Source: Clostridia bacterium | Lineage (GTDB): Bacteria; Bacillota; Clostridia; Oscillospirales; CAG-272 | DNA length: 64,000 bases | Assembly (NCBI GenBank): GCA_017472305.1 | Contig: JAFUQP010000019.1 | Span: 1 to 64,000 of the forward strand | Reading direction: 5' to 3' | In this document: piece after piece, positions 1,293 to 41,267 of the stretch | How the letters are laid out: each line of letters opens with the position of its first letter | Numbering within the stretch: the first letter of the stretch is position 1 | Translations under genes and position numbers: made by a program | The notes under the pieces: model-generated | What the model saw: the letters and a program-made list of their open reading frames with translations, nothing else | Databases searched by the model: none | Told to the model about the DNA's origin: nothing

Positions 1293-1550
1293 TTTTGTTT
1301 TCCTCCTTTTAGGTTTTGCTTTGAACCGTTTTAAGAAGGCGATGAGGTTTTACACTGCCTCGGGTGTTTCTTTTACACCCAACAAAATCAGTTCGTAAAG
1401 CCTCCGCAGCGGCAAACGAACCGAATAAAGTAATGCAGTGCGCCTAAATCGGCAACACTCTTGCTTCGCCCGGTTAAATATCGGACATACTCCACGGAAA
1501 TTCCCTGCCTCTATGGGCAGCCACCTCCCGCTTCAACGCATATCAAGCCT
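1293..1550 (-). promoter_or_regulatory. S10 operon 5' leader RNA
   Basis: About 250 untranslated bases separate the promoter from rpsJ on the minus strand. They contain short inverted repeats, for example GGGTGT-AAAAGA-AACACCC around 1361-1382. Long S10-operon leaders often mediate L4 feedback, but I cannot match this one to a named L4-binding fold, so the regulatory role is inferred. Confidence 0.45.
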
Positions 1551-5543: not shown

Positions 5544-5550
5544 CAAAAGA

Positions 5551-5626
5551 AAAGAGAGAACACCGCGTCTTAGTCTGATTGCATAACGCTTATATCAGAC
5601 GGCTCTCGCGGGAGCTCTCTCTTTTT
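5551..5626 (+). terminator. polA terminator
   Basis: Just after the polA stop, AAGAGAGA pairs with TCTCTCTT, which is followed by a T run. Inside this outer stem lies a second stem, GTCTGAT (5573-5579) with ATCAGAC (5594-5600). Confidence 0.7.
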
Positions 5627-5737
5627 GTTTTGCTGATTTTGGGTTATTTTGACTATTATACTTTACATTTTTGGTTTTGGATTACTTTTCCTCAAACAAA
5701 ATGCATCGCGGTGCTGATTTTTAGAGAGAAAGAACAA

Positions 5738-7294: not shown

Positions 7295-7310
7295 AGCTTC
7301 TCCTCTTTTC

Positions 7311-17724: not shown

Positions 17725-17753
17725 AAAAAGAGGGCGCCGCCCTCTTTTTTTTT
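17725..17753. terminator. Bidirectional terminator at the fic 3' end
   Basis: AGAGGGC-GCC-GCCCTCT (17729-17745) flanked by A and T runs. It can end the fic transcript on the minus strand and anything from the left on the plus strand. Confidence 0.85.
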
Positions 17754-18640
17754 CATATTTCAATATTGAATTTTTGCAAGAGTATCTTGAATTTATCCTG
17801 AGCTGAAAGGCAGGTGTCGGTAAGAAAGCCTCTCTCGGTATCCCACTCTTTGAGCCCTCTGTAATAAAAGAGCTTATGCTCCTCGTCTATTATGAAAGGG
17901 ACAATATTATGCTTTAAGCATTCGCCAAACATAATGAGTCTGCCGACTCTACCGTTTCCGTCCTGGAAGGGGTGGATTCGCTCAAATGCTACGTGGAAGG
18001 AGAGTATATCCTCAAGGCTTTTTTCTTTCTTTGAGTTGTAGCTATCAAGCAGGGCTTTCATTTCCTTTGCCACCGCCCTCGGTGCGGTTGTATCAATTCC
18101 GCCAACCTCATTGGCAAGCTTCTTATATTCGCCAACCTTGAACCAATCAAGACGACTGTCGCTCGTTCCGCTTTTTAAGAGAAAATGGAGTTCTTTGATA
18201 TATTTTTCCGAAAGTGTAAGATGGGCGTTATCTATCATACGGTCAATGCATCTGAAATGGTTTGACGTTTCAATAATATCATCAACGTTGACCGCTTTTT
18301 CGGAAAGACCTATGGTATTCGTTTCAAAGATATACCGCGTTTCGTCGTGAGTGAGCTTAGAGCCTTCGATGTGGTTAGAATTATAGGTCAGGTCTATCTG
18401 CACTCTGTGGTAAATTCCGCCCGAAAGACGAGCCGTCTTTTCCTCACGCAAAACGTCAAGCAGTGTGCGCTTCTTGTCCGAACGCACAGCCCTTTTCGGC
18501 TTCTGTGCAACATCGGGAATTTCCCAAGTCTTACCCACAAGGCGCGCCCCGGCAACTCGCCCCTCACTGCAATAATTTCTGACACTCCTCTCGGAAATCC
18601 CCCATTTCAGAGCCGCCTCGGCAACCGAAATATATTTCAT
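17753..18640 (-). CDS. Fic-domain protein with N-terminal helix-turn-helix
   Basis: A 295-residue protein. Residues 1-50 (SVAEAALKWGISERSVRNYC...GRVAGARLVGKTWEIP) form a helix-turn-helix/MerR-like DNA-binding unit. Near residue 88, SNHIEG matches the (S/T)xxxE(G/N) inhibitory motif of class II Fic proteins. The Fic core HPFQDGNGRVGR lies near residue 227 and is intact, so AMP-transferase activity, held by its own inhibitory helix, is predicted. Start 18640 follows GAGGTGAT; the open frame extends 10 codons further without a site. It is monocistronic and has three copies of a possible operator upstream. Confidence 0.92.
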   Translation of the reverse strand: MKYISVAEAALKWGISERSVRNYCSEGRVAGARLVGKTWEIPDVAQKPKRAVRSDKKRTLLDVLREEKTARLSGGIYHRVQIDLTYNSNHIEGSKLTHDETRYIFETNTIGLSEKAVNVDDIIETSNHFRCIDRMIDNAHLTLSEKYIKELHFLLKSGTSDSRLDWFKVGEYKKLANEVGGIDTTAPRAVAKEMKALLDSYNSKKEKSLEDILSFHVAFERIHPFQDGNGRVGRLIMFGECLKHNIVPFIIDEEHKLFYYRGLKEWDTERGFLTDTCLSAQDKFKILLQKFNIEI

Positions 18641-18660
18641 AAATATCACCTCAAAAACCG

Positions 18661-18749
18661 TTATCGGCAATTTACAATACTATTTTACCACATTATCGGC
18701 AAAATATCAAGTGTTTATATGATTATTTTTAAGAGTTATTTTGCCGATA
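18661..18749 (-). promoter_or_regulatory. fic promoter with three TTGCCGATA operator-like repeats
   Basis: On the minus strand TTGATA, 17 bases, TAAAAT (18682-18710) forms the promoter. The motif TTGCCGATAA lies inside the spacer (18693-18702) and downstream of the -10 (18661-18670), and an inverted copy TTGCCGATA lies at 18741-18749. This spacing suggests repression, possibly by the Fic protein's own N-terminal domain. Confidence 0.6.
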
Positions 18750-25073: not shown

Positions 25074-26513
25074 TCAGTTAGCTCTCGAAAGAGTGATTGT
25101 TATAGAGGTTTCGCCGTCAAAATAGTAGTAGTCGTCAGCATCCTTTCCCTCGGGGTAGCCGTAGCCCGAAGGAATAGAATTAATCTGTACGTGATATTCC
25201 TCGGTTACGAAATCAGCAAAGACAACCTTGCCGTCCGCACCCGTGGTCTTGGGCATAAAGCAGTTAGAGCCCGAGCACATCTGAATAACGACGCCTGCTA
25301 TGGCATTGCCGTCAGGGTCGATAACAGTAACCGTCCAGTCGGGAATGTCAACCGCGGTTTCCGAGAAGGTTGCTGTGAAGGAAATATCAGTCACGTCGTC
25401 AGCCGACGAGGAAACGTTGATTAGCACCTCGTCACCTACAGCTACCGCAAGGTAAAGCGTGACTGCACCGGGGTTGTAGTCTGTAACTGTGCTCTTTGTG
25501 CGGTTCTGAATAGTGATAACCGCGTCGTCGTCCTCGGTGGTAACAACGATATAGCCTGCCTCGGTTATCTCTACCGTGTAGAATACGGTGCCTTCCTTTG
25601 CGACAGTCGCGGTCTTAAGCGTTCCAAGCTCTGCCACGTAGGGGTTGCCCTGCGTTCCGGGGAGCGAGGTAAATACGAAGTCAAGCTCTACCGCAGTCGC
25701 CGCGGTATTGGTTACCGTGAAGGACGTCACCTGGTAAATCGACTCGGGGCCTTCGAGAAGAACAGAAAGCGCGCCCGACTCGGGAAGATAATCCTCGCCG
25801 TCGTAGCTGACCTTGAAGCTCTCGCCCTCAATAGAGAGAGTTCTGCTCTCGCCGCGCATCTGGAAATGAAGAGTTTCCCCAGCCGCAAAGTCGAAGGTCA
25901 TCTCCTCCTCGCTGATATAGAATGGCTTGTCCTCTGAGCCGTCGGGAGTAAGGTCGATAACGGTGTACTCAACGCTCGAATTCTCCGTAATCTCCATAAG
26001 GTGGCCGTCCTCGGCGATTGTGCACATCTCGGCAAGTCCCTCGAAATACACTCTGTACTCACCGACGGAAAGCTCAAGCGAGCCCTCGCCCTCGGAGTCT
26101 GTAACGAAGGAATCAACCTCGTCGCCCTCGAGGTCACGGACGGTTACCGTAACACCCGATACAGCGTTTCCGTCCTCGTCAACAATTACCGCAGTGTAGG
26201 TTGCCTTCGGCTGTGTGTAGGGAGCGAGGCAGTTGTCGCACTTGCCGTCCTCGTTGATATCGAGGTGAACGGGGCAGGTATACGCTGCCGTGCAGACGTC
26301 GCACTTGCCGTCGGAATTTGCATCTCTGTGTCCCGGGCAGGTGTAGTCCTCCTCGCACACGTCGCACTTTGAATCGCCGTTTGCGTCAACGTGCTTTGTG
26401 CAGGGCTCGCCTCCCTCGCCGTCGTCACCGCCGCCGCAGGACACCGCGAGAAGCGCTGTCAAGACAAGCGCCAGGGTCAAAAGAAGCATCGAAAGTATTT
26501 TCTTAAAGCTCAT
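25074..26513 (-). CDS. Surface lipoprotein with Asp-Asn-Asp/CxxC repeats
   Basis: The 479-residue protein has a lipoprotein signal ending LLAVSC (Cys near 26). Three tandem units follow at residues about 37-95: HVDANGDSKCDVC, HRDANSDGKCDVC and HLDINEDGKCDNC. Each joins an EF-hand/dockerin-like acidic loop to a Cys-x-x-Cys pair. Beta-rich domains follow: a carboxypeptidase-regulatory-like segment (AVIVDEDGNAVSGVTVTV), a central beta region, and a second similar segment near the C-terminus (VTVIDPDGNAIAGVVIQ). The role is unknown; metal-stabilised surface display is an inference. TTGGAGGA precedes ATG 26513. It is transcribed alone from a promoter located inside the preceding terminator. Confidence 0.85.
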   Translation of the reverse strand: MSFKKILSMLLLTLALVLTALLAVSCGGGDDGEGGEPCTKHVDANGDSKCDVCEEDYTCPGHRDANSDGKCDVCTAAYTCPVHLDINEDGKCDNCLAPYTQPKATYTAVIVDEDGNAVSGVTVTVRDLEGDEVDSFVTDSEGEGSLELSVGEYRVYFEGLAEMCTIAEDGHLMEITENSSVEYTVIDLTPDGSEDKPFYISEEEMTFDFAAGETLHFQMRGESRTLSIEGESFKVSYDGEDYLPESGALSVLLEGPESIYQVTSFTVTNTAATAVELDFVFTSLPGTQGNPYVAELGTLKTATVAKEGTVFYTVEITEAGYIVVTTEDDDAVITIQNRTKSTVTDYNPGAVTLYLAVAVGDEVLINVSSSADDVTDISFTATFSETAVDIPDWTVTVIDPDGNAIAGVVIQMCSGSNCFMPKTTGADGKVVFADFVTEEYHVQINSIPSGYGYPEGKDADDYYYFDGETSITITLSRAN

Positions 26514-26563
26514 ATTTCCTCCAAAAAAGTTAAGAGCATACGCCCTAAAATTTTCACCTCTTA

Positions 26564-26592
26564 ATTGTAACACAAAACCCTCGGATTGTCAA
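26564..26592 (-). promoter_or_regulatory. Promoter of the 25-26.5 kb lipoprotein gene
   Basis: Minus strand TTGACA (in the loop of the upstream terminator), 17 bases, TACAAT. Confidence 0.75.
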
Positions 26593-28373: not shown

Positions 28374-28402
28374 AAAAAGGAACCACCCCGAAGGGTGGTT
28401 CC
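28374..28402 (-). terminator. Terminator of the 925-residue lipoprotein gene
   Basis: Minus strand GGAACCACCC-TTCG-GGGTGGTTCC followed by TTTTT. A strong intrinsic terminator with a tetraloop. Confidence 0.9.
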
Positions 28403-28420: not shown

Positions 28421-31198
28421 TTATACCTGTGTAATAGTAACAGTAAACTCTACCTCGATTGCATCTCCGGTGTTGTTAAGGAAGCCGAAGAAGCAACCGT
28501 TAGAATTAGCATCGTTGGTAATGTTATCGCCGGAAGCGATGGTGTTCTGGAACATAGGAGTTCCTGTCTGAAGCATAACGTCAGCGGTGAAGGTAACCTG
28601 AACGTTATAAGCGTCAGTCATTTCGGTTCCGGGCCATGCAACGTAGAACCAAGCTGCGGAGCCTGCCGCAACGTTAACGGTATAGGTACCTGCTTCGAGA
28701 GTGGTCTCGGGTGCAGCTGCACCATAAATATTCTCAGAACCAACAACCTCGGTAGCATCTCCGTTGCCTGAATCACCCGAACCCGACGAGCTACCGGGAA
28801 GAGTAATAGTAAAGCTTATATTACCTGGATTTCCGCTATAAGTCGAAACCTTGAGATAGAAGGTCTGACCTGCGGTAACCGCTTTGGTTACGGTAGGCTG
28901 GAATCCCATATCGCAGAGATTAAAGCCGAAAGTACCGTAATCATAACTCCAATCGCTAGTTTCGTCAAAGGCAACTACTACATCTCCGTCAACAGTAGCA
29001 ACGTAGGTATAGTAAACGTAATCGCTTCCTACAATCGCTGTATATGTTCCGCTCTCGGTGATAACGTAAGGATCGTCTACAGTTCCACTGCCGGAAAGAG
29101 CAGGAGAATCCGAAGAAGGAGCTTCTTCTACTACGATAGTAAAGCTATCATAAATCTCTGCATTTGCGACAGACGTAATTGTCACAACGTATGTACCTGC
29201 AACGGTAGCATTGAAGGTTGCGGCATCAGCATCAGAGAAATCGATATATGCATATTCCTCGTTAAACTTACCTATTTCAATAGTTGTAGTACCAAAAGTA
29301 ACGCTTGTAGCATCACCGTTAACTGTAGTAACAGTAAGAGTGTATGCATTGTTTGCATAAATACTATTCGTTGTTATACCAAACACGAAATCAACTCCGG
29401 TGTATACGCTTTCGTCTCCGGTAAAATCAGTCCACACGCTATAAGGAACATTTTCGCCCCACAAAAGTGCGCTTTCACTTCCAAGAGTTTGAGCCTTCAT
29501 AGAAGTAAGTTCGGGTGCAGTTACCGTAAAGTCAATTTCCTTCGCCTCTGTCAGTTCAGAAGAAATCACGAGAGTATAATCTCCGGTCGCGGTGCTAGTC
29601 AACGAAATGTAATCGCCGTTATGATAAACCCTAATCGGGCAATCCCAAGCATCAAGATCCATCTCCTCGCCGTCCTCATCAAGAACAACAAACTCAAAGA
29701 TATTGTAAGCAGGATTTGCGGTTGCAGGAACGGTATTTGCGAAATAAATCTTAGTTTCCTCGCCCTGAACAGCAGAGAAGGAGTCATCTATAACATTATT
29801 ACCAATCTTAAGTGCATATTCAAGAAGAATATTTGCAACTGCGCCAAACTCGTCATAATTCCTATCGTCAGTATACTGCTTAACCTCGTAAACGTAGGTA
29901 GTCGATGCTACAGCATCGTCAGAAAGAGCAATGCTCTCAACTATAGGATTATCTTCCTCGTCGAGTATCTGATTGTCGTTTTCATCAGTCTTATATGTAA
30001 TTGTGAAGTTGGTTCCAATCACATCATAGTTTTCGTCAAACTGGTACTCACCATAAGCCTTTGACGTCATATTAAAGGTGTCGATAACATAATTCTCGTC
30101 AAGAGTAAACTCAACGGTAATACTGTAAAGATAATAGCCATAGCTCAAGAAGCTGAAGGAGTAAACGCCATCTTCACTTACAGACTGCTCAAAGCCATCA
30201 TATTCATTAAGAATAGCGCGAGTATAGAGCTCGGTAAGCAAACCTATAATGCCGTAAGGAGAGTACTCCTCGCCATACTCTATAGCGATATACTCCTGTC
30301 CGAAATCGTATCCGCCAAACATTCCGGTAGAAACATCATAGGTCTCTCTCTCAAAAGCACCCACGCCCTCTTTTACGAGAGCAAGAATGGAATCCTCTCC
30401 GTAAAGAGAATATAAGTACTCTTTTTTGGTAGTATCATACTCTGTACCGATAACGCTTCCCCACTCGCTATATTCAGGATAGAATTCTTCAATCACCTCA
30501 ATGATATGAAGAACCTCTCCAACCATAGCATAGTCGACGTTGACGTTTTCTCCGGTATCACCGCTGCTAGTATTTGCGCTACCCACAATTGTACCATACT
30601 TAACAAGAGCATCCTTAAGAGCTCCTACCGCAATAGCCTTATCAACAGTAGAAACGTCAACCGAAACTGCCTTGTCGCATACCTTACAGAAGCCGAGTGC
30701 ATCAAGGTCGTGTGCTTCCTTGGTGGGCGCTACAGTGTGTCCGCAGTCAGCTGCGTGCCAGTGATGGGTTGCGTCGGTCTCCCACGCATCTGCGTAGGTG
30801 TGGGTGTGTCCTGCGTTGTATCCGCAGGTGTCGCAGGCACCGTCATTGTTGGCATCTGCGTGTGCAGCGGAATCCTTGACTGCGATGGAGCAGCCGCAGG
30901 TTGCTGCGTGCCAGTGGTTGGTAGCATCGGACGTCCATGCGTCTGCTGCCTGATAGGTGTGGGTATGAGAGTAGTCATATCCACAAACGTCACAAAGCTT
31001 GTCATTGTTGACATCCTTGTGAGCTTCGGTGGCAACCTTCACGTCGGCACATGCTTCGTCCGTGCAGGTTATCCAGTGATTGGTCTCGTCTTTAGACCAA
31101 TCGGTGCTGAAGGTGTGTTCATGTCCGCCAAGTCCGCAGGAAGCGAGCATAAGCGCTACGAGCGTAAACACCAAAACCAAAATTGAAAATCTTTTCAT
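28421..31198 (-). CDS. Large repeat-containing surface lipoprotein (925 residues)
   Basis: The lipoprotein signal ends ALMLASC (Cys near 20). Residues about 25-175 alternate two motifs: WSKDETNHWITC / WTSDATNHWHAATC / WETDATHHWHAADC units, and HKDVNNDKLCDVC / HADANNDGACDTC / HDLDALGFCKVC units. The latter type is shared with the 25-26.5 kb lipoprotein. A long beta-rich body follows, with segments resembling immunoglobulin or bacterial pre-peptidase folds (GTVDDPYVITESGTYTAIV), a Gly/Ser linker near 830, and a final beta domain. The function is unknown; anchoring and surface binding are inferred. AAGGAGG precedes the ATG. It lies just downstream of the MoxR-VWA operon. Confidence 0.85.
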   Translation of the reverse strand: MKRFSILVLVFTLVALMLASCGLGGHEHTFSTDWSKDETNHWITCTDEACADVKVATEAHKDVNNDKLCDVCGYDYSHTHTYQAADAWTSDATNHWHAATCGCSIAVKDSAAHADANNDGACDTCGYNAGHTHTYADAWETDATHHWHAADCGHTVAPTKEAHDLDALGFCKVCDKAVSVDVSTVDKAIAVGALKDALVKYGTIVGSANTSSGDTGENVNVDYAMVGEVLHIIEVIEEFYPEYSEWGSVIGTEYDTTKKEYLYSLYGEDSILALVKEGVGAFERETYDVSTGMFGGYDFGQEYIAIEYGEEYSPYGIIGLLTELYTRAILNEYDGFEQSVSEDGVYSFSFLSYGYYLYSITVEFTLDENYVIDTFNMTSKAYGEYQFDENYDVIGTNFTITYKTDENDNQILDEEDNPIVESIALSDDAVASTTYVYEVKQYTDDRNYDEFGAVANILLEYALKIGNNVIDDSFSAVQGEETKIYFANTVPATANPAYNIFEFVVLDEDGEEMDLDAWDCPIRVYHNGDYISLTSTATGDYTLVISSELTEAKEIDFTVTAPELTSMKAQTLGSESALLWGENVPYSVWTDFTGDESVYTGVDFVFGITTNSIYANNAYTLTVTTVNGDATSVTFGTTTIEIGKFNEEYAYIDFSDADAATFNATVAGTYVVTITSVANAEIYDSFTIVVEEAPSSDSPALSGSGTVDDPYVITESGTYTAIVGSDYVYYTYVATVDGDVVVAFDETSDWSYDYGTFGFNLCDMGFQPTVTKAVTAGQTFYLKVSTYSGNPGNISFTITLPGSSSGSGDSGNGDATEVVGSENIYGAAAPETTLEAGTYTVNVAAGSAAWFYVAWPGTEMTDAYNVQVTFTADVMLQTGTPMFQNTIASGDNITNDANSNGCFFGFLNNTGDAIEVEFTVTITQV

Positions 31199-31337: not shown

Positions 31338-33314
31338 TTATCGGAAATACGCAACCTTCGCGTAGAAGCCGACTCCGAAGAGCCACTGGTCGGCGTGCTC
31401 TGAATAGATGCTCTTCTGCGATTCTATCCAGCCGTTGCCGTCCATAAAGTAGCGCTGGGATTCCGAGAGCTTCTGAAGGAAGTCCTGAAGCTCGGCTGTG
31501 ACCGCATAATTGCCGTCGGAGTTACAGAAGGCGGAATAGCCAAGCATCACGTTCGGCACCAGAATGCCGCCAACGTCGGTTGCGGGGATTTCTCCGCGCT
31601 CCGCCGCCTCAAAGAGCGCCATTGCCTCGTCGGGAAGATTTCGGCAATCGGCGTGACAGTTCTCGCAGGATTCACCGCAAACTCCGATACAGGTCGGTAT
31701 ATCGGTAGGCTCGTTGTAGGCGTTACGGCAGGGGCATCTTCTGTCACAGAAATACGCACCGGTCGTTGCCGTCGGGTTATTAAGACCTGGGTCTATAAGC
31801 AGTGCGGGAAGCCCTTGAATAAAGAGCTTATAGTTCTCGGTTCCGTTAGAAACGGTAAGCGCCTTGTTACCCGCCTCCTCGATAGAGGTCAAGGGAGTGT
31901 TTCCGCCCTCGCCAAGAAAACGCGTGGGGCTTGATATATTGGCGTAGAGGATAGGGCCATAGACTCCCGTAGTCTTGTCGTAGAGGTGGTAATATCCGTC
32001 GCCCTTGCCGTAGAAGAGTGAGCCGTCGCCGTCAAGTGCCAGAGCAAAGTAGGGTATTACGTCGCCCGAGAGATACTCCGTGACGACATTTTCACCGACG
32101 AGCTCGTAGGAATATACCGAATACTCGATATCCTGCCTTACGCTACCCGGAATATAGTGGTCAACCGTTACCGTGCCGCGAGTCGAGCCGACTGCGTCGG
32201 GAGTGAAGGTTATATCGGTTTTCGCATTGTAGAAGTCCATAGAATAGCTGCCCGAGAGCTTATCGGCGGGAGTCGCTCCCACACCGTCGCGAACGAGGGG
32301 CATACCGAGCGCGTCCCTCTCCCAGTAGGAATACATTGAGCCGTCAAAGACGGTTGCGGTGCCCTCTGCCCTCTCGGGATAATAGAAGCTGTATTCATCG
32401 GAATATCCGAGCTGGTGCCGAAGCTCCTCCTCGGGAATAATAATTTCAGCCTCCTCGCGGTTGATAGGAAACTCACCGTCAAGCGTTATCGCAAAATAGA
32501 CCTCGGCGGGATACTCCGCGTTCTTCTCTTCCGCCATAATACCGAAGGTAAAGCGCACCTGACCGCCCGTCGAAATCATCTCGTCGGCAATATCGACGTC
32601 AAGCTTGAAGTTCTTGGTATAGGTCGAGGCTGCCGCGCCGTCGTCGGCGACACTCTGAAGCTGCTTGAAGGCAAAGTTTGCGCCGTAGTAATTTGCCTTA
32701 GGGTTAACGGTGTTCTCGGTTGTATCAACCCAGCTGGTTATCGAATACATACCGCTTCTTGTCGGGGCGAATTCGAAGAACACCTCATGCTTTGCGCTAT
32801 CCAGCTCAACGCGGTAAAGTCCCGTGGACTTTATGGGAATACAGTTATAGAGCTGCGTCTTTTTATCCTTGTAGGACACGAGCTTCTTTAACTCAATCTC
32901 GATATTTCTGTTATCGTTGGTTGCGACGTAGGCGTTGGGGTCGTAGGCATAGCCCGTCGGTGCCGCCGAGAGGGTGACTTGATAGTCGCCGTCGAGCCCC
33001 TCTATGCTTGCCTTGCCGTCACTGCCGACAGTTGCCGTGTGGTAGGAAAAGCCGTCGTTCCATCTTGCCTCGATAGTCTCGGCAGGAATATAGGTCTGCC
33101 CTCCGTATACGAGGGTGACTGTGAAGGGGCTTTCCTCGCCCGATGAGCCTGTGCCCGAGCCTGCGCCCGAGCTACCCGAGCCCTGCGAGCCTGAGCCTGT
33201 GCCCGAGCCCGACGGGTGGCCGCCTGTTGCGGGATTGTATTCTCCGCAGGACGAAAGCAGCGTCAGTATAAGAAGGAGAAGCGCCGTTATTCTGGTGAAT
33301 TTTGTTTTTTTCAT
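31338..33314 (-). CDS. Cysteine-cluster lipoprotein coupled to the MoxR-VWA operon
   Basis: The 658-residue protein has a lipoprotein signal ending TLLSSC (Cys near 23) and a Gly/Ser linker (about 30-60). A beta-rich segment with EARWNDGFSYHTATVGSDGKA, typical of carboxypeptidase-regulatory-like domains, follows, then a beta-sandwich region (170-290). Near residues 520-560 eight cysteines lie in about 40 residues (FCDRRCPC, then CIGVCGESCENCHADC). Such spacing suggests disulfides or a metal/cluster site. The ATG overlaps the stop of the upstream VWA gene (ATGA), so it belongs to that operon. GGGAGGAG precedes the start. No family is recognised. Confidence 0.85.
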   Translation of the reverse strand: MKKTKFTRITALLLLILTLLSSCGEYNPATGGHPSGSGTGSGSQGSGSSGAGSGTGSSGEESPFTVTLVYGGQTYIPAETIEARWNDGFSYHTATVGSDGKASIEGLDGDYQVTLSAAPTGYAYDPNAYVATNDNRNIEIELKKLVSYKDKKTQLYNCIPIKSTGLYRVELDSAKHEVFFEFAPTRSGMYSITSWVDTTENTVNPKANYYGANFAFKQLQSVADDGAAASTYTKNFKLDVDIADEMISTGGQVRFTFGIMAEEKNAEYPAEVYFAITLDGEFPINREEAEIIIPEEELRHQLGYSDEYSFYYPERAEGTATVFDGSMYSYWERDALGMPLVRDGVGATPADKLSGSYSMDFYNAKTDITFTPDAVGSTRGTVTVDHYIPGSVRQDIEYSVYSYELVGENVVTEYLSGDVIPYFALALDGDGSLFYGKGDGYYHLYDKTTGVYGPILYANISSPTRFLGEGGNTPLTSIEEAGNKALTVSNGTENYKLFIQGLPALLIDPGLNNPTATTGAYFCDRRCPCRNAYNEPTDIPTCIGVCGESCENCHADCRNLPDEAMALFEAAERGEIPATDVGGILVPNVMLGYSAFCNSDGNYAVTAELQDFLQKLSESQRYFMDGNGWIESQKSIYSEHADQWLFGVGFYAKVAYFR

Positions 33315-36004
33315 TTTGCTCCTCCCTTTGCGCGTTTTTTACCGAAGAAGCTGACGATGTCGCTCCACTTAAGCTTCCTTATTATTATATCGACGATATA
33401 TAGCACCGCCGAAAGAATCATAAGAGGTACGGTGAAGTACATCTCGTAGGTTGCGACCTCGCGCTCGTCGTTCTCGAGCGAGGGAAGCCGTCCCTCGTTT
33501 ACCGTTCCGCGGTTTCTGATTGCCGCGTGAAGCTCCGAGGGGTCAAAGCTTGCGAAGCTGTCATACTCGGGTGAATAGGACACGTTATGCACAAGCTCCG
33601 AGGTATAAGACCTTTCTCCGTAGGAATATGTAATCTCGATTACGTACTTACCTATTCCGTCGGCTCTGTATCTGTGAGAATACTTCTCGGAGTCGAAGGT
33701 CAGAGTGTACTCCGACACAGCTCCTGTGGGTGAGGTGACCTTAAGAATCATAGTCGCCTTGGGGTTCAGAGTCGTCGGGATTATTTCAACGTAGGAATAG
33801 GTTCCGTCAAACTCGGTGGTTACAGTGTAGGGATAGGCTATTCTCTCGTCGGGGATATTCTCGGTCAAAACGTTGCCGAGGAATATATCTCCCGCACTGC
33901 CGACAAAGTCAGCAGTCCACTCGCCCGAGAGGCTGCTCATAAAGCTTGATACCCTGCCCTCTCCGTAATTCCAATAGGAATAGAGGGGAGCCTTTATAAC
34001 CGTGTCGGCATTCTTCTCGTAATCTACCGAGAGGGGAGTTGTGGCGCTCGCCTTTGCCTTTGCGTATGCATAGCCGTAAATATCGGGAAGAGCCGCAACG
34101 CCCGATAGCACGGGGTCCTGTCTTTTGTCGATATTTATCGCGGTTTTGCCGAGAATAACAGACTCGGTGACGTCATCGGCAATCTCAGAGAACATAAGCT
34201 CCTCGAGTGCCTCCTCGCTGTCAAGGAAGTAATACTCACCGCCGCCTGCCGAGGCAATATCGCGAAGTGTTTCGGTACCCTCCTTCTCGGAGTTGTAGGG
34301 GTTTATAACCGAAGTCTTGACGTTCAGCCTTTCAAAGAGGTCGGTGGCAACGTCGGTCGGCTTATCGGATTCATAGGTGTAGGACATTCCGTCGCTTATC
34401 AGCATTATCTGCTTCTCTTCATAAGGAAGCGCCTCTATAAGCTCGCCCGCCTTGTCAAGAGCAGTACCGATAACCGTGCCCTGATAGGGACGAATGCCGT
34501 TTATAAGCCTCTTTACGTCCTCGCGGTTCTTTACTCTCGTTGGGGCTTGGAGCACGTTTATCTCGCCCCAGAAGTTAACTACCGTTACGTAGTCGTTATC
34601 CGAAAGAATGTCAAGCAGCCTGCACGCCGCCTGCTTTGCGATAATCAGCCTCGATGCCTGGTCCATACTGAGTGAGGAGTCGATAACTATAGCGTAAAGC
34701 TTCGGGTCCTGGTCGCTGTTGCCGAAGCGCACGGGCAGCATATTTTCAAGCTGCTTGAGTACGTCCTCGGTCTTGTTCTGTATTTTAAGGTCGCCGACGG
34801 TAACGAGGCTCTTGCCGAACTTTGATACCGCGGTGTCAATCGCGCCTATGAAGGCTGTGTAGTTGTTTATCTCACGTACGTCGAGGCTCGATAGCATTAT
34901 CTCGTCGTACTCAATAAGCTCCTCAACGCTCGAGGGAATAAGAACGCCCGACTGCTCCTTGCCCTCGCTCGGAACGAAGGTGTAGCTCATCTTGCCCGCG
35001 CGGCGTCTGCCGACGTAGGCGTCAAGCACCGCCTCCTCGCCGTATAGCGCCTTCGCGCGCTCGAGGTCATCTCTGTCGTCGGTTATGAGGAGCACACGCA
35101 CCTCGCCCTCGACGCTCTGGGTGAAGCTGTAGGAATTGTTATGGCTCGAGAGGTCGCCCTCGGCAGCTATCTTAACCTCGTAGTCATATTCACCCGAGGT
35201 GTCGGTAGGTAAACTAAAGTTTACAATATTGAAGCCGTTAACAAGCTCTACCGCCTGATTGTCAAGAAGCTCGCCGTTTCTGTATATTGAGGCGATAGCC
35301 TCGGTTTCATAGCTTGCTCGGACGAGCACGTCGGCAGATGCCTCGTGATTTTTGTAGGTTGCGGGGGTGAAGCCCACGTCGGAAATCTGCACCTCGGAAA
35401 CGTCTGCCGAGAGGTTATTGTCAACGTATATCGCGTCAACGTATATTCCCTCGGAGTAGAGTGCCTCTATAGAGGTGATAAGTCTGCCTCTGCCGTCGGT
35501 GTCGGTTTCCTTACCGTCGCTGATTATGATTATGCGCTTTATCGTGTCCTCGCTAAAGAGGGTTGCCGTGTAATCCAGCGCCGAGGAAAGGTCGGTCGCG
35601 CTATCGTCAATTCCCGAGTCCTTCACTGTGGAAAGCTCGCCGCCAAGCTCGGTAATAATCTTGAAGTCCTTACCGAAGGCAACGACACCGAGGCTCGAGT
35701 TGTTCGGCAGGTTTTCCTCAATCTCGGAAATATACCCGTCAACCTCGTCGAGGGTGCGGTTTGATGAATAGGAAACGTCGGCTACGACGTAAACCTCGGT
35801 TTTTGTGATAACGGTGGTCATTCTCATACCCGCAAGGGCAAGCGATGCGAGCAGCACTATGAGAATATGCAGGACGAGCGATACCGTCGTCGCACGCGTT
35901 CTGTTCTCGTGTCTTATGGCGACAAGGTGGGGGACTGTCACCAGAAGAAGGAGAGGAATTATTACGAGAAGTAAGAGCGGATTATCGAAGCTGATATTTA
36001 TCAT
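33311..36004 (-). CDS. Membrane protein with two VWA domains (BatA/BatB-like)
   Basis: About 897 residues from ATG 36004. Two membrane segments lie at the N-terminus (NPLLLLVIIPLLLLVTVP and LHILIVLLASLALAG). A first VWA domain follows, with metal motif VADVSYSS near residue 75, and a beta region comes after it. A glutamine-amidotransferase-like domain interrupted by a second VWA with VIDSSLSMD near 435 comes next. A final membrane segment near 860 precedes a basic tail. Both DxSxS MIDAS motifs are intact. VWA proteins of this type pair with MoxR AAA+ ATPases as co-chaperones. It overlaps the upstream gene by 23 bases and the downstream lipoprotein start by 4. Confidence 0.88.
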   Translation of the reverse strand: MINISFDNPLLLLVIIPLLLLVTVPHLVAIRHENRTRATTVSLVLHILIVLLASLALAGMRMTTVITKTEVYVVADVSYSSNRTLDEVDGYISEIEENLPNNSSLGVVAFGKDFKIITELGGELSTVKDSGIDDSATDLSSALDYTATLFSEDTIKRIIIISDGKETDTDGRGRLITSIEALYSEGIYVDAIYVDNNLSADVSEVQISDVGFTPATYKNHEASADVLVRASYETEAIASIYRNGELLDNQAVELVNGFNIVNFSLPTDTSGEYDYEVKIAAEGDLSSHNNSYSFTQSVEGEVRVLLITDDRDDLERAKALYGEEAVLDAYVGRRRAGKMSYTFVPSEGKEQSGVLIPSSVEELIEYDEIMLSSLDVREINNYTAFIGAIDTAVSKFGKSLVTVGDLKIQNKTEDVLKQLENMLPVRFGNSDQDPKLYAIVIDSSLSMDQASRLIIAKQAACRLLDILSDNDYVTVVNFWGEINVLQAPTRVKNREDVKRLINGIRPYQGTVIGTALDKAGELIEALPYEEKQIMLISDGMSYTYESDKPTDVATDLFERLNVKTSVINPYNSEKEGTETLRDIASAGGGEYYFLDSEEALEELMFSEIADDVTESVILGKTAINIDKRQDPVLSGVAALPDIYGYAYAKAKASATTPLSVDYEKNADTVIKAPLYSYWNYGEGRVSSFMSSLSGEWTADFVGSAGDIFLGNVLTENIPDERIAYPYTVTTEFDGTYSYVEIIPTTLNPKATMILKVTSPTGAVSEYTLTFDSEKYSHRYRADGIGKYVIEITYSYGERSYTSELVHNVSYSPEYDSFASFDPSELHAAIRNRGTVNEGRLPSLENDEREVATYEMYFTVPLMILSAVLYIVDIIIRKLKWSDIVSFFGKKRAKGGAK

Positions 36005-37826
36005 AGCAGTACACCATCCAATCCGCCGTGAATAGAAGCGCAAGCGCAATAAAGAGCGCAGTCAGCGCATCGTATTTTCCGTCAAAGCCGCCGCCCCCCG
36101 GCTCGCCGACGAGCATAACCCCCTCACCCGTAGGTGCGGGAATACATTCCGCATCGGTCATAGACGAATAAATATTAAATTGCCTCGGTGAGCCCGCGAC
36201 CGTCACGGTCACGGTATATACGCCGACCTCGTCAAGCGCTACGGTGGCGCTCGCTGAATCGGTATTCAGGTAAGAGATAACGCCGCGCGGGCTCTCTACC
36301 CTTATGCTGTCGCAGTTGGCTACGACGTTTATTTCTGCCTCCTCACCGCACTCGTACGAGGTCCTGTCTATCATCTCGGGGAAGGAATAATCCACGAGAT
36401 TCGAGATAAGCGCCATATAGTCGTAGAGGAGAGGGAAATTCGAGTTATGAAGGTCGAATGCAAGCGTTACCTGTCGGTTGCCGCCCGAGTTCGAGCCTGC
36501 GAAAATTACGGGGTTGCCCTTATACGAGTAGAGCGTTGTAAAGCTGCGGTAATAGGCGCACTTTACGTATTTGGTTACGTGAATTTCATCTCCGCGAAGC
36601 TCAGAGAGAAGCGCCTTTGTGGCACTTGACGACGAGCCCGATTTCTCGAGAACTGCCGACGAGGAGAAGGAAACCTCTCCCTGAACGCTGAAGCCTGCGC
36701 CCTCGGTGCTTCCCTGGGGATTTACAAGCCAGATTGCGCCGTCGCGCGGCAGGCTCTCGGGCGTGCAGCTGTCGAACACGTACAGACCGTAGCCCGTCTG
36801 TCCCGAATACTCATCGGGAGAAAGCACGTCAATTTTCGCGCTGATTGCCTCAGAGAGAGCCGATTCGATAAAGAAGGGACGCTCACTGACGATAAGCGTA
36901 TTATAAGAGCTCTCGCTCCTTACGTCGTAAAGAAGGTATTCGTTGTCAAGAGCCAGTCCGTCCTCGCCGTCAAGCGCAACGCGAATAGAGGAAAAGCTGC
37001 CCGAGGAGCACTCTAGAACGAATGGGGTAAGCTCCCCTGCCGAGAGGCTGAGCACCTCTACAGCCGACTCGGAGTCCGAGCCGTCAAGATACATTCTGAC
37101 GCTTACCGCTCTATCTTCGGTATGCGAAATAACGTTTCCGCTTACCGTAAGCTTACCTGACGAGCGGTGATAGACAACGTCAAGAAGCGAGGTATTCTTC
37201 TCGCCTACGGCAACGTTCTCTACCCTGATGCCATTTGCGCCCGAATAGTCGGTGTCGGTCAGAAGATATGTAAGGGCTCCGCGGTTCTCGTCAAAATAGC
37301 CCTGTGCCGTGCCGAGCGCATCGGTATAATCTGCCGTACGGTAGTCTGCCGAGAGGTCGGAGAGCAGAAGCAGCGCTCTATCCTTGTCGTCAAGCCTCTC
37401 GTATACCACGTTCGTGGTGTTACCAACCGAAATAAGCGAATAAACGCTGCCGTCTGCCGATTCCCCGATAAGCTCGCCTATACGTCTCTTTGCGCGCTCG
37501 AAGCGGCTCTCGCCGTCCGACTCAAAGTGCATGCTTCCCGAGCCGTCGAGAACGAACACGTACTCGTTCGCCGAATCGGGAACCGTAATCACAGGGTGAG
37601 CTATAAGGAGAGATATCGCCGTAACGCACAGAAGCTGCAGAATAAGGCTTATCATTCCAGCGAGCATGCTCGGCCGCCTCTTTCTCTTGAGAAAGCGCTC
37701 GCTAAGACTCCAGAGATAGGTAGAAGAAACCGTCTGCTCGGTGTATTTACTTTTGATAATATAAATGAATACCAGAATCGGAATTCCGATAAGTCCGAGT
37801 AATCCCAAAGGATATAAGAAGGTCAC
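35982..37826 (-). CDS. BatA-type VWA membrane protein
   Basis: The 614-residue protein starts with GTG overlapping the previous stop (GTGA). Residues 1-90 are the BatA N-terminal domain with two membrane segments (FLYPLGLLGLIGIPILVFIYI and LILQLLCVTAISLLIAHP). The VWA domain starts near 93 with VFVLDGSGSMHFES, an intact MIDAS DxSxS. A beta-rich extracellular or periplasmic-side region and a C-terminal membrane segment (LTALFIALALLFTADWM) follow. It forms part of the MoxR-DUF58-VWA operon and is expected at the membrane as a scaffold for the MoxR ATPase. Confidence 0.9.
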   Translation of the reverse strand: MTFLYPLGLLGLIGIPILVFIYIIKSKYTEQTVSSTYLWSLSERFLKRKRRPSMLAGMISLILQLLCVTAISLLIAHPVITVPDSANEYVFVLDGSGSMHFESDGESRFERAKRRIGELIGESADGSVYSLISVGNTTNVVYERLDDKDRALLLLSDLSADYRTADYTDALGTAQGYFDENRGALTYLLTDTDYSGANGIRVENVAVGEKNTSLLDVVYHRSSGKLTVSGNVISHTEDRAVSVRMYLDGSDSESAVEVLSLSAGELTPFVLECSSGSFSSIRVALDGEDGLALDNEYLLYDVRSESSYNTLIVSERPFFIESALSEAISAKIDVLSPDEYSGQTGYGLYVFDSCTPESLPRDGAIWLVNPQGSTEGAGFSVQGEVSFSSSAVLEKSGSSSSATKALLSELRGDEIHVTKYVKCAYYRSFTTLYSYKGNPVIFAGSNSGGNRQVTLAFDLHNSNFPLLYDYMALISNLVDYSFPEMIDRTSYECGEEAEINVVANCDSIRVESPRGVISYLNTDSASATVALDEVGVYTVTVTVAGSPRQFNIYSSMTDAECIPAPTGEGVMLVGEPGGGGFDGKYDALTALFIALALLFTADWMVYCYDKYQLR

Positions 37827-38707
37827 TTCAATACCCCCACGTTTGCCATTTTTCCAAATAATACCTCGCCGAGTGTATCCTCGGCAGATGCGAGAATATA
37901 GCTGCCGCCGCGCGACTGCGCCGCACGGTTAATACGCTCGGTCGCATAGACGAGCGCCTCTTTGTATGCCTTCGCTACAGCGCGGTCTATATTCTTTCTG
38001 TAGCTCTTAGACTGCACCTCGGAGTCGAAGAAATGAACTCTGCCGCGAGAGAGAGGAAGAAGCTCCTCACGCGAAAGCACCTGAATACAGAATATATCGC
38101 GCTTCTTGTCGGCGAGAGTGTTTATTGCCGTTTCGTAATCGGCATCGGTAAGAAAGTCGGAGATTATCACCGACATTCCGTCGCCGTATCCGACATTCGA
38201 CGGAGCTATCGCGTCGCTGATAAGGCTCTCGCCGTCAAAGACTATTCCCGAGAGCTTACCTATTTCGGAAAGATATGCTTCCTTTCCGACCATACCCGAG
38301 ATTACAGGCTCAAGCCTTCCGCCCTTGATGGCATAGACCGATACCTTATCCATCTCGCACACCGATATATACGCAAGAGCTGCGGCAATCCTCAGCGCCT
38401 GCACGTCCTTGCCAACGTCGCCGTAGGACATAGAGCGGCTCGCGTCTATGTATATTCTCGTGTGCATCTGCCTCTCGTCGAGGTAGAGCTTCAGGTAAAG
38501 CTTATCAAAGCGCGCGTAGGCGTTCCAGTCAATCTTGGTGACGTCGTCGCCGTCGGCATAGTCGCGGTAATCGGCAAACTCGGGAGAGGAGCCGAAGCTC
38601 TTACTCTTTCGGTTGCCGCCGAACATACCTGCAACGTTGTTTTTTATTACAGACTCGAGAAGCTCAAGCTCCGAGAGAAGCTCCTCGGTTATCTCAAATT
38701 TGCCCAT
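37823..38707 (-). CDS. DUF58 domain protein
   Basis: The 294-residue protein has the DUF58 signature FADYRDYADGDDVTKIDWNAYARFDKLYLKLY near residues 45-76 (shown here only as a landmark) and a VWA-like fold, with RIYIDASRSMSYGD near 88 carrying a DxSxS-type metal motif. DUF58 proteins almost always travel with MoxR ATPases. It has no membrane segment. The ATG shares a base with the moxR stop (TAATG), and the stop overlaps the next start. Confidence 0.92.
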   Translation of the reverse strand: MGKFEITEELLSELELLESVIKNNVAGMFGGNRKSKSFGSSPEFADYRDYADGDDVTKIDWNAYARFDKLYLKLYLDERQMHTRIYIDASRSMSYGDVGKDVQALRIAAALAYISVCEMDKVSVYAIKGGRLEPVISGMVGKEAYLSEIGKLSGIVFDGESLISDAIAPSNVGYGDGMSVIISDFLTDADYETAINTLADKKRDIFCIQVLSREELLPLSRGRVHFFDSEVQSKSYRKNIDRAVAKAYKEALVYATERINRAAQSRGGSYILASAEDTLGEVLFGKMANVGVLK

Positions 38708-39714
38708 TACTTCTTCTTAGTCTCGGAAACTATCATATCAATTACGTCGTCTACCGTGCGTCCGTCGTTTACAGCGGTGTAATTAAGCTTGATTCTATGA
38801 CGGAGAACGGGACGGGCGAGAGCATCTATATCGGCGTAGGAAACGTTGAAGGCGCCGTTCATAAGCGCACGCACCTTTGCCGCGGTAACTATTGCCTGTG
38901 CCGCACGGGGAGATGCTCCGTACTTAACGTACTTTTTGGTAGCCGCGGGAGAGGAGTCAAGCTCGGGGTGAGTGCCCGACACGAGTCTTACCGCGTAATC
39001 GAGAATTTCGTCGATAACGGGAACGCTGGAAGCAAGAGCGCGCATCTCGAGAATCGTTTTGCCGTCAAGAACCGCAGAGGCGGTCTCCGCCATAGTAACC
39101 TGCGTCATCTTAACGATATCAACAAGCTCGCTTGCCGCGGGGAATTTCATTATAAGCTTGAACATAAAGCGGTCCATCTGCGCCTCGGGAAGAGGATACG
39201 TACCGTCCTGCTCTATCGGGTTCTCGGTAGCGAGAACGAAGAAGGGCTCGTCTAAAACGTAGCTCTGATTCGCAACCGTCACCTTATGCTCCTGCATTAC
39301 CTCAAGCATTGCAGACTGCGTCTTGGGGGTTGCGCGGTTAATCTCGTCGGCAAGGACAAGGCTCGAGAAAATCGGGCCCTTGCGGAATACGTTCACCATA
39401 TTTCCCGAGGCGTCCTTCTTTACCACAACGGTACCGGTAACGTCCGAGGGCATAAGGTCGGGGGTAAACTGAATTCTCGAGAAGGGGAGCGAAAGCACTC
39501 TTCCGAGAGAGCGCACAAGACGTGTTTTACCAACTCCGGGAACGCCCTCAAGAAGCACGTTACCGCCTGCAATGATAGCGGTTATAACGTTGTCGATAAT
39601 GTCGCTCTGACCTACCACGTCACGGGCAAGCTCAGCTCTTACTCTTGCTATCGCCTCGCCGAACTCCTTGACTCTTACGTTTTCCGAAGCCTTTGTGTTA
39701 TTCTGTATATCCAT
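38707..39714 (-). CDS. MoxR-family AAA+ ATPase
   Basis: The 335-residue AAA+ ATPase has Walker A EGVPGVGKTRL near residue 55, the Walker B LVLADEINRATPKTQSA near 122, sensor FFVLATENPIEQDGTYPL near 158 and the C-terminal lid with GASPRAAQAI. MoxR ATPases act with VWA proteins in folding, metal insertion or activation of client enzymes. ATG 39714 is chosen, with a GAGAGG site; the open frame begins six codons earlier at a TTG. Confidence 0.95.
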   Translation of the reverse strand: MDIQNNTKASENVRVKEFGEAIARVRAELARDVVGQSDIIDNVITAIIAGGNVLLEGVPGVGKTRLVRSLGRVLSLPFSRIQFTPDLMPSDVTGTVVVKKDASGNMVNVFRKGPIFSSLVLADEINRATPKTQSAMLEVMQEHKVTVANQSYVLDEPFFVLATENPIEQDGTYPLPEAQMDRFMFKLIMKFPAASELVDIVKMTQVTMAETASAVLDGKTILEMRALASSVPVIDEILDYAVRLVSGTHPELDSSPAATKKYVKYGASPRAAQAIVTAAKVRALMNGAFNVSYADIDALARPVLRHRIKLNYTAVNDGRTVDDVIDMIVSETKKK

Positions 39715-39738
39715 TTTCTCTGAACCTCTCAAATTCTC

Positions 39739-41169
39739 TTATTTATCGCCGTTATAGAGCGCCGCAAAATACGCGCTTACGAGCTCCTCAAGCTCCTCGG
39801 GAACGTTGTCGTCCATAAAGTGCTCGGAAACCTTGGCAAAATATCTGTCAATAACCTCACCGTAGGTGAGATACTCTCCGCTCTCGGGGTCGTATACGGT
39901 ATCGTCACTTCCGTAAACCATATCGCCGCTTCCAAGACCGCCCGAGTTAAGCTCTTCGTCACTGTCCTCACCGTCATAGCCACCGTCAGAGCCGCCTGCG
40001 CCTGCATCCTTCGGGCGCTCGCTTGCCGGAAGCTCATCCTCGGTGATGCCGAATATCTGCAAAAGCCTTCTGACAACAGTGTTCCTGACGCCCTCGTTCG
40101 TGCTTTCGGCAAGAAGCGCCGTGCTTACAGTGTCCTTTGCGTGTCCTATTGCCACCTTCACAGCCTCGGTGAGCTCGGTCTCGGAGAAGGTAGCCTCGGA
40201 ATCGGCTATAGCGTCAAGCTCATCGGCAAATGCAAGAAGCGCAAGATAAAGCGCGCCGTCGGTCCTCGCACCCGAGCCGGTGAGAGCCGAGCCTACCGAT
40301 GAGGCAATAGCCGCCGCCTGCGAATATGCCACGTCACCCGAGAGTGCCTTTTCTATCGCATCAAGCTCCTCTCCGACGAGCGTGCCGCGAAGCGATGCAA
40401 CCGCAGCACCGAGCCGAATTACGGCAGGATTTACGGTATTTCTCATTTTTTCGCCTATGAGGTCGTATTCGTTGTGGTCGTTGATTTCCTTATTTACGGC
40501 GGTTACCGTGGAAATCACCGCGTTCTTCATTGCGCTGACCTTCTTTACCGACTTAAGCGTAAGAAGCAGCGACCGAAGCTCCTCTACAACCCCGGCCTTC
40601 GGGGACTCGTGAAGCGCAGATGCCTCAACCGTTTCAATAAGGTCGAGCAGCGCCTGCTCCTGCCAGGTGGAGAGGTTGAAATCGGGGTCGGTAACGGGGG
40701 GCTCGCCTCCGTCCTCGGTATGTACGGGAAGAAAAATTGCCACGAGTACAAGCGCCGCAGCAATTATCGGTGCTACGAGGTGGAGAAGAAGCCTCGGCGA
40801 AGCTCCCTTCGCTCTGACCGCCGCCCCAAGACGCTTGTCAGCGTCCTCTCGCTGAGCCTTATGTATTTCGCCGTCAGCACCGCTGAAGGCTATCATCGTA
40901 CGGACTCTCTCGCCGAGCCCGAATTTTTCATCGTAATATTTGGCAAGGCGGCGCTCCGTCGGGAATCGCAGGACGGTATAGAAAGCAAACACCGCCAGAA
41001 GCACTCCGACAGAGGCGACCAGAATCCTGCCACCGTCAACCTCACGGACGGTCAGCTTCTGTACTATGGCAACGAGCGAGCCGGTAACGGCTCCTGTGGA
41101 AAGCCCGAGAAGCAACGCCCCGAGAAGAACGAGCAAGCTACGCCTCGCCTTCAGTTTTTTAAACTGCAT
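39739..41169 (-). CDS. DUF4175-like membrane protein, first gene of the MoxR operon
   Basis: The 476-residue protein has three membrane segments: about 12-32, 44-65 and 130-150. Between the second and third lies LAKYYDEKFGLGERVRTMIAF, a pattern known from DUF4175-type proteins. A long helical region (160-390) and an acidic Gly/Asp-rich C-terminal part (400-450) follow. Start 41169 follows GAAAGGG; the earlier in-frame GTG lacks a site. Twenty-four bases separate it from moxR. Its helical, extracytoplasmic or cytosolic bulk could bind the operon's client. The family link is tentative. Confidence 0.72.
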   Translation of the reverse strand: MQFKKLKARRSLLVLLGALLLGLSTGAVTGSLVAIVQKLTVREVDGGRILVASVGVLLAVFAFYTVLRFPTERRLAKYYDEKFGLGERVRTMIAFSGADGEIHKAQREDADKRLGAAVRAKGASPRLLLHLVAPIIAAALVLVAIFLPVHTEDGGEPPVTDPDFNLSTWQEQALLDLIETVEASALHESPKAGVVEELRSLLLTLKSVKKVSAMKNAVISTVTAVNKEINDHNEYDLIGEKMRNTVNPAVIRLGAAVASLRGTLVGEELDAIEKALSGDVAYSQAAAIASSVGSALTGSGARTDGALYLALLAFADELDAIADSEATFSETELTEAVKVAIGHAKDTVSTALLAESTNEGVRNTVVRRLLQIFGITEDELPASERPKDAGAGGSDGGYDGEDSDEELNSGGLGSGDMVYGSDDTVYDPESGEYLTYGEVIDRYFAKVSEHFMDDNVPEELEELVSAYFAALYNGDK

Positions 41170-41238: not shown

Positions 41239-41267
41239 ATTATACTCCTATATTAATAAAAAGTCAA
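41239..41267 (-). promoter_or_regulatory. MoxR-VWA operon promoter
   Basis: Minus strand TTGACT, 17 bases, TATAAT. It gives a leader of about 65 bases. The 41270-41725 stretch beyond holds only a doubtful frame at 41319-41693. Confidence 0.8.

Follow-up and report, generated by a model that had tools for sequence, protein, structure and literature searches.

Several gene clusters that join a MoxR ATPase to DUF58 or VWA proteins have been described. In Borrelia, the VWA domain of the BatA-type protein BB0173 is reported to face the periplasm (PMC5700661), and the function of the Bat proteins is said to remain elusive in a study of Leptospira (PMC3557215). The mycobacterial moxR1 neighbourhood is placed in the MRP subfamily by a review, which also states that RipA was reported to interact with MoxR1 (PMC12067865), and the authors who described the PFNA cluster of Bifidobacterium suggested that the chaperone may fold the protein FN3 (PMC8430577). 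For NorQD, the metal ion-dependent adhesion site (MIDAS) residues are described as needed for target activity and not for NorQ binding, and acidic residues of the target are also needed (PMC9976466). MoxR-vWA ternary conflict systems have been described as well (PMC7159879). Here, we analyse a probable operon of seven genes in a Clostridia bacterium (Oscillospirales, CAG-272), contained in a stretch of 64,000 nucleotides that is referred to as the window. Its genes occupy positions 41169 to 28421 of the minus strand, in the order leader, MoxR, DUF58, VWA1, VWA2, lipoprotein 1 and lipoprotein 2. It is a MoxR-DUF58-VWA (MRP-like) operon, since its MoxR gene, with Walker A and B motifs, adjoins DUF58 and VWA genes, and lipoprotein 1 very probably belongs to this system.

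The evidence for this membership comes from the distribution of lipoprotein 1, which was searched with an 11-row profile (E 1e-10 in the later surveys). Loci and genomes are designated by L and G numbers, respectively, and the window copy is the copy of a gene or protein in the stretch under study. In a first draw, 10 of 196 genomes of the family presented lipoprotein 1 at E < 1e-100. At E 0.001 there were matches in 82 of the 196, most of which cover only the first 50–190 positions, from the signal peptide onward; the count was restricted to the ten genomes. A larger draw found it in 35 of 395 family genomes, distributed in 10 of 71 genera. The order contributed two of 295 genomes, neither of them new, and the class two of 391, of which one is new (G651, from another family). 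A contig scan added Clostridiales bacterium SIG403 (L034). In the resulting 37 genomes, a full-length or contig-cut lipoprotein 1 is always located directly behind VWA2, although in G1030 this adjacency is read with the gene split over two contig ends.

All five core genes can be seen in 34 of these 37 genomes, as contig ends conceal part of the core in G977, G988 and G956; the leader of G651 is cut off by the end of the fetched stretch. The spacing between VWA2 and lipoprotein 1, taken from the longest open reading frames (ORFs), ranges from -23 to +18 nt in 34 genomes and is -65, 54 and 55 nt in the others. The recurrence of the gene order in all genomes with lipoprotein 1 is more than expected by chance. 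A first-pass annotation of this DNA had considered that homologues of lipoprotein 1 might lie mostly away from MoxR operons, and no full-length homologue was found off the operon in the sampled genomes. The distances among 11 loci agree between core and lipoprotein 1 (Mantel r 0.906; 0 of 10000 permutations), with a mean p-distance of 0.57 for lipoprotein 1 and 0.44 for the core.

Related core operons were collected with a VWA1 profile, which was positive in 28 of the 196 family genomes and in two new genomes among 295 of the order; with paralogues and L034, 36 core operons were obtained. For their tails, the search took in co-directional ORFs of 100 aa or more that lie no further than 250 nt away: 11 operons carry lipoprotein 1, five carry leucine-rich repeat (LRR) lipoproteins, and 20 carry neither. 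In a tree of four core proteins, which omits L132 because no VWA2 was found there, the 11 operons with lipoprotein 1 form one clade with support 1.0, and the five with LRR lipoproteins form a separate clade, also with support 1.0. The latter (L116, L119, L120, L122 and L131) end in a BspA-type LRR lipoprotein of 929–945 aa (LRR_5 E 2.1e-141 or better), which in L119 and L120 is followed by a Big_3 lipoprotein. Of the 20 operons with neither tail family, three end at contig ends, one (L114) is followed after 182 nt by an unrelated lipoprotein, and in the remaining 16 no lipoprotein comes next within 250 nt. Thus, on whether related MoxR operons end before lipoprotein 1, which the first-pass annotation had also raised, the answer is divided: none does so in its own clade, but 25 of the 36 core operons lack it.

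Some of these operons present particular forms. L108, L110 and L113 are shortened, with VWA2 of 524–542 aa, a leader of 381–398 aa and no lipoprotein as next gene. The L107 operon may have a third type of tail: its VWA2 shares 4 bases with a gene of a different kind (352 aa, 6252–7310), and a 481-aa gene (4803–6248) follows. G081, G089, G129 and G176 each contain two or three core operons in parallel; their tails differ in G081 and G129, and a contig end interrupts the second copy in G089 and G176.

At the level of the window sequence, the junctions between the genes are tight. TAATG is read at the moxR/DUF58 junction, GTGA at DUF58/VWA1 and ATGA at VWA2/lipoprotein 1, and VWA1 and VWA2 overlap by 23 bases, counted from the VWA2 ATG at 36004. 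Six minus-strand genes with these overlaps or minimal gaps had been annotated in the first pass, and each named junction is indeed present. The boundary drawn there after lipoprotein 1 was rejected, as the co-directional gene of lipoprotein 2 comes next, 139 nt on and before a terminator-like site, with AGGAGG ahead of its start; a second lipoprotein follows in all 35 genomes with room for it. The unit therefore looks like one of seven genes, ending with lipoprotein 2 ahead of the terminator-like site. The leader starts at ATG 41169, and for MoxR the ATG at 39714 is a more likely start than the TTG at 39732. A candidate promoter precedes the leader; promoter-like matches are common in the region (32, against a mean of 13.2 in shuffles), so that this one alone is weak evidence. 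Terminator-like sites number 19 against 12.9 in shuffles, and the site at 28402–28379 ranks first among them. The coordinates of these features, and of others in the window, are given in the table below.

Table. Features of the MoxR-DUF58-VWA operon and of its surroundings in the 64,000-nt window
Feature	Position	Strand	Remarks
Candidate promoter TTGACT-17-TATAAT, 11/12	41239..41267	-	consensus match; upstream of leader gene
Leader membrane protein, 476 aa	39739..41169	-	three predicted transmembrane helices, N-terminus in, ~327-residue acidic C-terminal part predicted outside
MoxR AAA+ ATPase, 335 aa	38707..39714	-	AAA_3 E 3.4e-59, 198.9 bits
DUF58 protein, 294 aa	37823..38707	-	DUF58 match E 7.5e-25
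VWA1, BatA-type, 614 aa	35982..37826	-	BatA N-terminal domain E 2.6e-8; VWA_2 E 8.1e-12
VWA2, 897 aa from ATG 36004	33311..36004	-	two VWA domains predicted outside, each with a full set of MIDAS residues
Lipoprotein 1, 658 aa	31338..33314	-	no curated family; weak SpaA/prealbumin-like N-terminal domain
~92-residue insert in lipoprotein 1, residues 343–434	32013..32288	-	window copy only, 0/35 others
Seven-cysteine loop of lipoprotein 1, residues 523–557	31644..31748	-	all-or-none in family
Lipoprotein 2, 925 aa	28421..31198	-	last gene of unit; homologue follows in relatives
Three HxH...HWH/HWI...CxxC repeats of lipoprotein 2	30674..31123	-	at start of lipoprotein 2
Intrinsic-terminator-like site	28379..28402	-	10-pair stem + TTTTT, 3' of lipoprotein 2
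Divergent lipoprotein-like ORF, 1668 aa	41883..46889	+	adjoins operon; no Pfam match
499-aa protein	25074..26573	-	SpaA/CarboxypepD_reg matches; third same-strand gene past operon terminator-like site
Fic/DOC family protein	17753..18670	-	E 1.7e-17
S10-Clostridia ribosomal leader	1466..1545	-	Rfam RF03136, 43.6 bits

The MoxR protein has PDB 2r44 as its nearest solved chain (E 1.5e-69). All 33 aligned operon copies have an identical LADEINR motif, and 26 of the 33 an identical GVGKT motif. The DUF58 protein retains the VWA-like DxSxS in all 34 aligned copies, and no membrane anchors were noted in either protein. The leader presents three predicted transmembrane helices in nine of 11 relatives, two in L040 and four in L036, by hydropathy. 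Its naming as DUF4175-like in the first pass was abandoned, as PF13779 matched one of 11 relatives at E 0.0068 and gave no match to the window protein in Pfam.

The topology of VWA1, VWA2 and the leader was obtained by an in-house hydropathy and charge count. Three transmembrane helices are predicted in 11 of 11 relatives for both VWA1 and VWA2. In VWA1 they are predicted as two at the N-terminus, with a conserved 33-residue loop between them inside, and one at the C-terminus, the VWA domain lying outside. The short loops of the window VWA1 and VWA2 are richer in Lys and Arg, and their large parts, of 510 and 797 residues, are acidic, so the VWA domains should be outside. Two solved chains were reported for VWA1, BatB 3ibs and the aerotolerance protein 4jdu, which for VWA2 rank second (E 2.1e-10) and third, respectively. 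The second VWA domain of VWA2 adjoins a GATase1-like segment (2gk3 E 2.7e-5; Pfam GATase1_like below cut-off), and its MIDAS residues D442, S444, S446, T510 and D538 are retained in 36 of 36 core operons. The MIDAS of the first domain is kept in 11 of 11 operons of the lipoprotein 1 clade, and shows gaps or changes in some other operons. As for VWA1, the third position of DxSxS changes from S to T in three of 11 members of this clade, with a few changes outside it too, and the MIDAS Thr was not located; a complete MIDAS is present in two of the three VWA domains, both in VWA2.

Lipoprotein 1 is of no recognised family, as had been proposed: the window protein has no Pfam or NCBIfam match above the curated cut-offs. 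The best Pfam hint is the prealbumin-like SpaA at residues 87–143 (15.9 bits against a cut-off of 23.1), the best NCBIfam score is 10.7 against 250, and four marginal PDB profile matches have E 0.061–0.094. No E value among 11 members is below 0.00056 (YxzE, in one of them), and SpaA is matched in two. A phage origin of lipoproteins 1 and 2 was rejected, as neither had a PHROG match at E 0.01.

Across 36 copies of lipoprotein 1 (the gene of G956, cut by a contig end, was left out), conservation reaches at least 97% in forty columns, among them that of the lipobox cysteine C23. The acidic residues E479, E608, D625 and E631 are invariant in 11 copies, and D625 and E631 are kept in at least 97% of the 36. 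The loop cysteines 523, 527, 529, 546, 550, 553 and 557 are present all together in 29 of the 36 copies, and the whole loop is missing in the other seven (L043, L138 and L178–L182); with such copies, the cluster was rejected as an essential core of the protein. In a lipoprotein 1 tree built without the loop columns, the copies lacking it form two groups of support 1.0, plus the outgroup L138. A cysteine at position 648 is present in 35 of 36 copies, the window copy alone being without it. In the same tree, genus g1 appears in four separate places and g3 in two, and the operon is patchy within genera; this patchiness and the scatter of g1 suggest that the whole unit was transferred or that old copies were lost.

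Lipoprotein 2 has no Pfam family above cut-off either, and its His/Cys repeats occur nowhere else in the source genome (86% complete) at E 0.001. A second lipoprotein stands behind lipoprotein 1 in all 35 genomes with room for it, a count that omits G989 (L173) and G956 (L183), where there is too little room. Of these 35 proteins, 34 match at least one other member, some through the repeats and some as contig-end fragments only (L159 and L181). The second protein of G651 (L138) has a lipobox, and homology to the other members was undetected. The number of CxxC repeat units in the relatives ranges from none (L034) to about eight (L039 and L042).

From these comparisons, we favour, with about an even chance of being right, a reading in which the operon specifies both a Bat-like MoxR machine that spans the membrane and the two surface lipoproteins that go with it, whose folding, assembly or display the machine drives. 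A lipoprotein partner is topologically possible because the VWA domains are predicted outside, and the lipoproteins would be anchored on the outside of the membrane that holds VWA1 and VWA2. MoxR and DUF58, on the inside, would act on the conserved 33-residue cytoplasmic loop of VWA1, and an ATP-driven movement would be relayed to the outside VWA domains. These would grip an acidic residue of lipoprotein 1 via the MIDAS metal, as proposed for NorD holding NorB, and through this grip both lipoproteins would be folded, assembled or displayed. By analogy with NorQD we infer that an outside MIDAS holds lipoprotein 1, and we also infer the direction in which the machine acts. The different surface lipoproteins of the sister branch suggest that the machine has such surface proteins as its working partners, and the lipoproteins may be its exchangeable, lineage-specific end.

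The first-pass annotation had presented lipoprotein 1 as a candidate client of the MoxR-VWA proteins. Its membership of the operon is well supported by the adjacency to VWA2 in all 37 genomes, and the role of direct client is plausible, one that from the sequences could almost equally well be true or false. Some observations weigh against the reading that we favour. The second-domain MIDAS of VWA2 is kept in all 36 core operons, so that the MIDAS sites are not for lipoprotein 1 alone, and 20 of those operons are without either tail family (although three stop at contig ends). The Mantel agreement is also expected from simple joint inheritance. In addition, the N-terminal part of lipoprotein 1 occurs in unlinked lipoproteins: two in tandem, of 432 and 356 aa, are found in L185 (G054:C20), the longer one being the strongest off-operon match, over residues 1–193 only (E 3.4e-12). 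A more general proposal, which we hold as a tentative one and rather doubt, is an inside-out MoxR machine with a cytoplasmic motor, outside VWA hands and exchangeable terminal surface-lipoprotein clients, whose assembly, grip or display would be powered by ATP across the membrane. Lipoproteins 1 and 2 and the BspA-LRR/Big_3 proteins would be alternative cargo sets, and the seven-cysteine loop an optional metal-binding or disulphide module of the first set.

The flow could also run from outside to inside. The lipoproteins would sense or bind an outside ligand, the VWA domains would read their state, and VWA1 would relay it to DUF58 and MoxR, acting on an unlinked cytoplasmic target. The faster evolution of lipoprotein 1 in relation to the core, and the variable length and repeats of lipoprotein 2, are what is seen in binding parts; moreover, the Bat proteins have been suggested to form a periplasmic signalling complex (PMC3557215), and BB0173 to be part of a sensing system (PMC5700661). 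By eye only, ORFs resembling response regulators were noted close to the operon in L040 and L043, and one resembling a sigma factor upstream of it in L035. However, such signalling-like neighbours are not common to the loci by inspection, with no systematic search for a conserved signalling gene, and we regard this flow as rather unlikely. Another explanation, which seems unlikely to us, is that the lipoproteins are only co-regulated, sharing a promoter with Bat-like genes that are needed under the same condition, with no physical contact. The 20 core operons that lack both tail families and still keep the second-domain MIDAS of VWA2 would fit it. It accounts poorly for a lipoprotein 1 that remains adjacent in 37 of 37 genomes, mostly by overlaps or very short gaps, while the flanks, by inspection, differ between most loci (the close pair L037/L038 has them in common), and for two separate core clades that each retain their own lipoprotein tail.

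In a metallation reading, the machine would insert a metal or an iron-sulphur cluster into lipoprotein 1 at its seven-cysteine loop, the natural place for one, and NorQD would be a precedent (PMC9976466). The conservation of all seven cysteines together in 29 of 29 loop-bearing copies is as expected for a bound metal, and His/Cys repeats are present in lipoprotein 2 of most relatives. Nevertheless, disulphides could also give the cysteine pattern, though seven is an odd number, and the metal would have to be supplied outside the cell, across the membrane from the ATPase. In the tree, the copies without the loop make up two groups (support 1.0 each) in addition to the outgroup, and all are in the same operon context; since the loop is optional, metal loading cannot be the shared function, and the metallation of a client suggested in the first pass is thus disfavoured and, as an explanation of the operon, quite improbable. 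A ternary MoxR-vWA system for defence or conflict, with VMAP, iSTAND, FtsH or beta-propeller components, would also bring MoxR and VWA genes together, and the MoxR protein passes the Pfam bpMoxR curated cut-off (41.6 bits against 27, E 9.6e-11). Its AAA_3 score is far above this one, however, and none of those four domains was found in the scanned window proteins; of the 11 relatives of the leader, one had a VMAP-M1 match, with E no better than 0.0065, and the PADLOC matches were to the ATPase only, at E 2.9e-4 or weaker. Such a system is therefore extremely improbable here.

In the open-licence PMC literature, to which the search was limited (subscription papers lying outside it), no description was found of the lipoprotein 1 family or of a MoxR operon with BspA-LRR lipoproteins. 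One clade of operons tied to the lipoprotein 1 family wherever it is found, and another tied to LRR lipoproteins, provide concrete outside partners and turn the function of Bat proteins into a testable question. If these partners are clients, ATP hydrolysed inside the cell would shape proteins on its surface.

Among the known systems, NorQD, CbbQO and RavA-ViaA, and also CoxD, have a cytoplasmic VWA partner. NorQD, CbbQO and RavA-ViaA are not known to have a DUF58, and NorQ-NorD is not known to have a membrane-anchored outside VWA or a lipoprotein. The present operon, with DUF58 and VWA domains predicted outside, is not of this type, and the analogy with NorQ-NorD, CoxD and RavA-ViaA drawn in the first pass is not supported as it was stated, the outside position here having its precedent in BB0173. 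It shares with NorQ-NorD a MoxR protein with a VWA partner, and in NorQ-NorD the MIDAS of this partner is put to use for the target (PMC9976466). NorQ-NorD, however, acts on a respiratory enzyme.

The Bat operons of Borrelia (BB0170–0176) and Leptospira (bat) are closer. They have in common with the operon of the window the MoxR, DUF58 and BatA/BatB-like VWA membrane proteins, as described for Borrelia (PMC5700661), and the BatA topology with VWA outside, which is predicted here and was measured for BB0173 in the same study (PMC5700661). The chains 3ibs (BatB) and 4jdu among those nearest to VWA2 extend this likeness. The differences are the two VWA domains and the GATase1-like part of VWA2, and the two surface lipoproteins of the unit. 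A strict Bat operon includes BatC, BatD or BatE partner genes; no TPR or BatD-type gene was found among the proteins of the operon, to which this search was limited, the rest of the genome being outside it. Because TPR and BatD domains are lacking in the operon proteins, we call the operon Bat-like rather than a Bat operon in the strict sense, and it is a variant of the MoxR-DUF58-VWA kind.

Two further clusters, compared by description, place exported proteins beside such genes. In the mycobacterial ripA-ripB-moxR1-DUF58-VWA neighbourhood, MoxR, DUF58 and a VWA membrane protein also stand beside exported cell-wall proteins (PMC12067865), which there are NlpC/P60 peptidases located upstream, and here are lipoproteins located downstream. 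The PFNA cluster (pkb2, fn3, MoxR, duf58 and tgm) likewise combines an MRP-type MoxR and DUF58 with FN3, a surface protein that is secreted and lineage-specific (PMC8430577), but with FN3 upstream and with a kinase and a transglutaminase in place of the two VWA proteins. By analogy, RipA and FN3 may be taken as precedents for exported partners encoded beside MoxR and DUF58.

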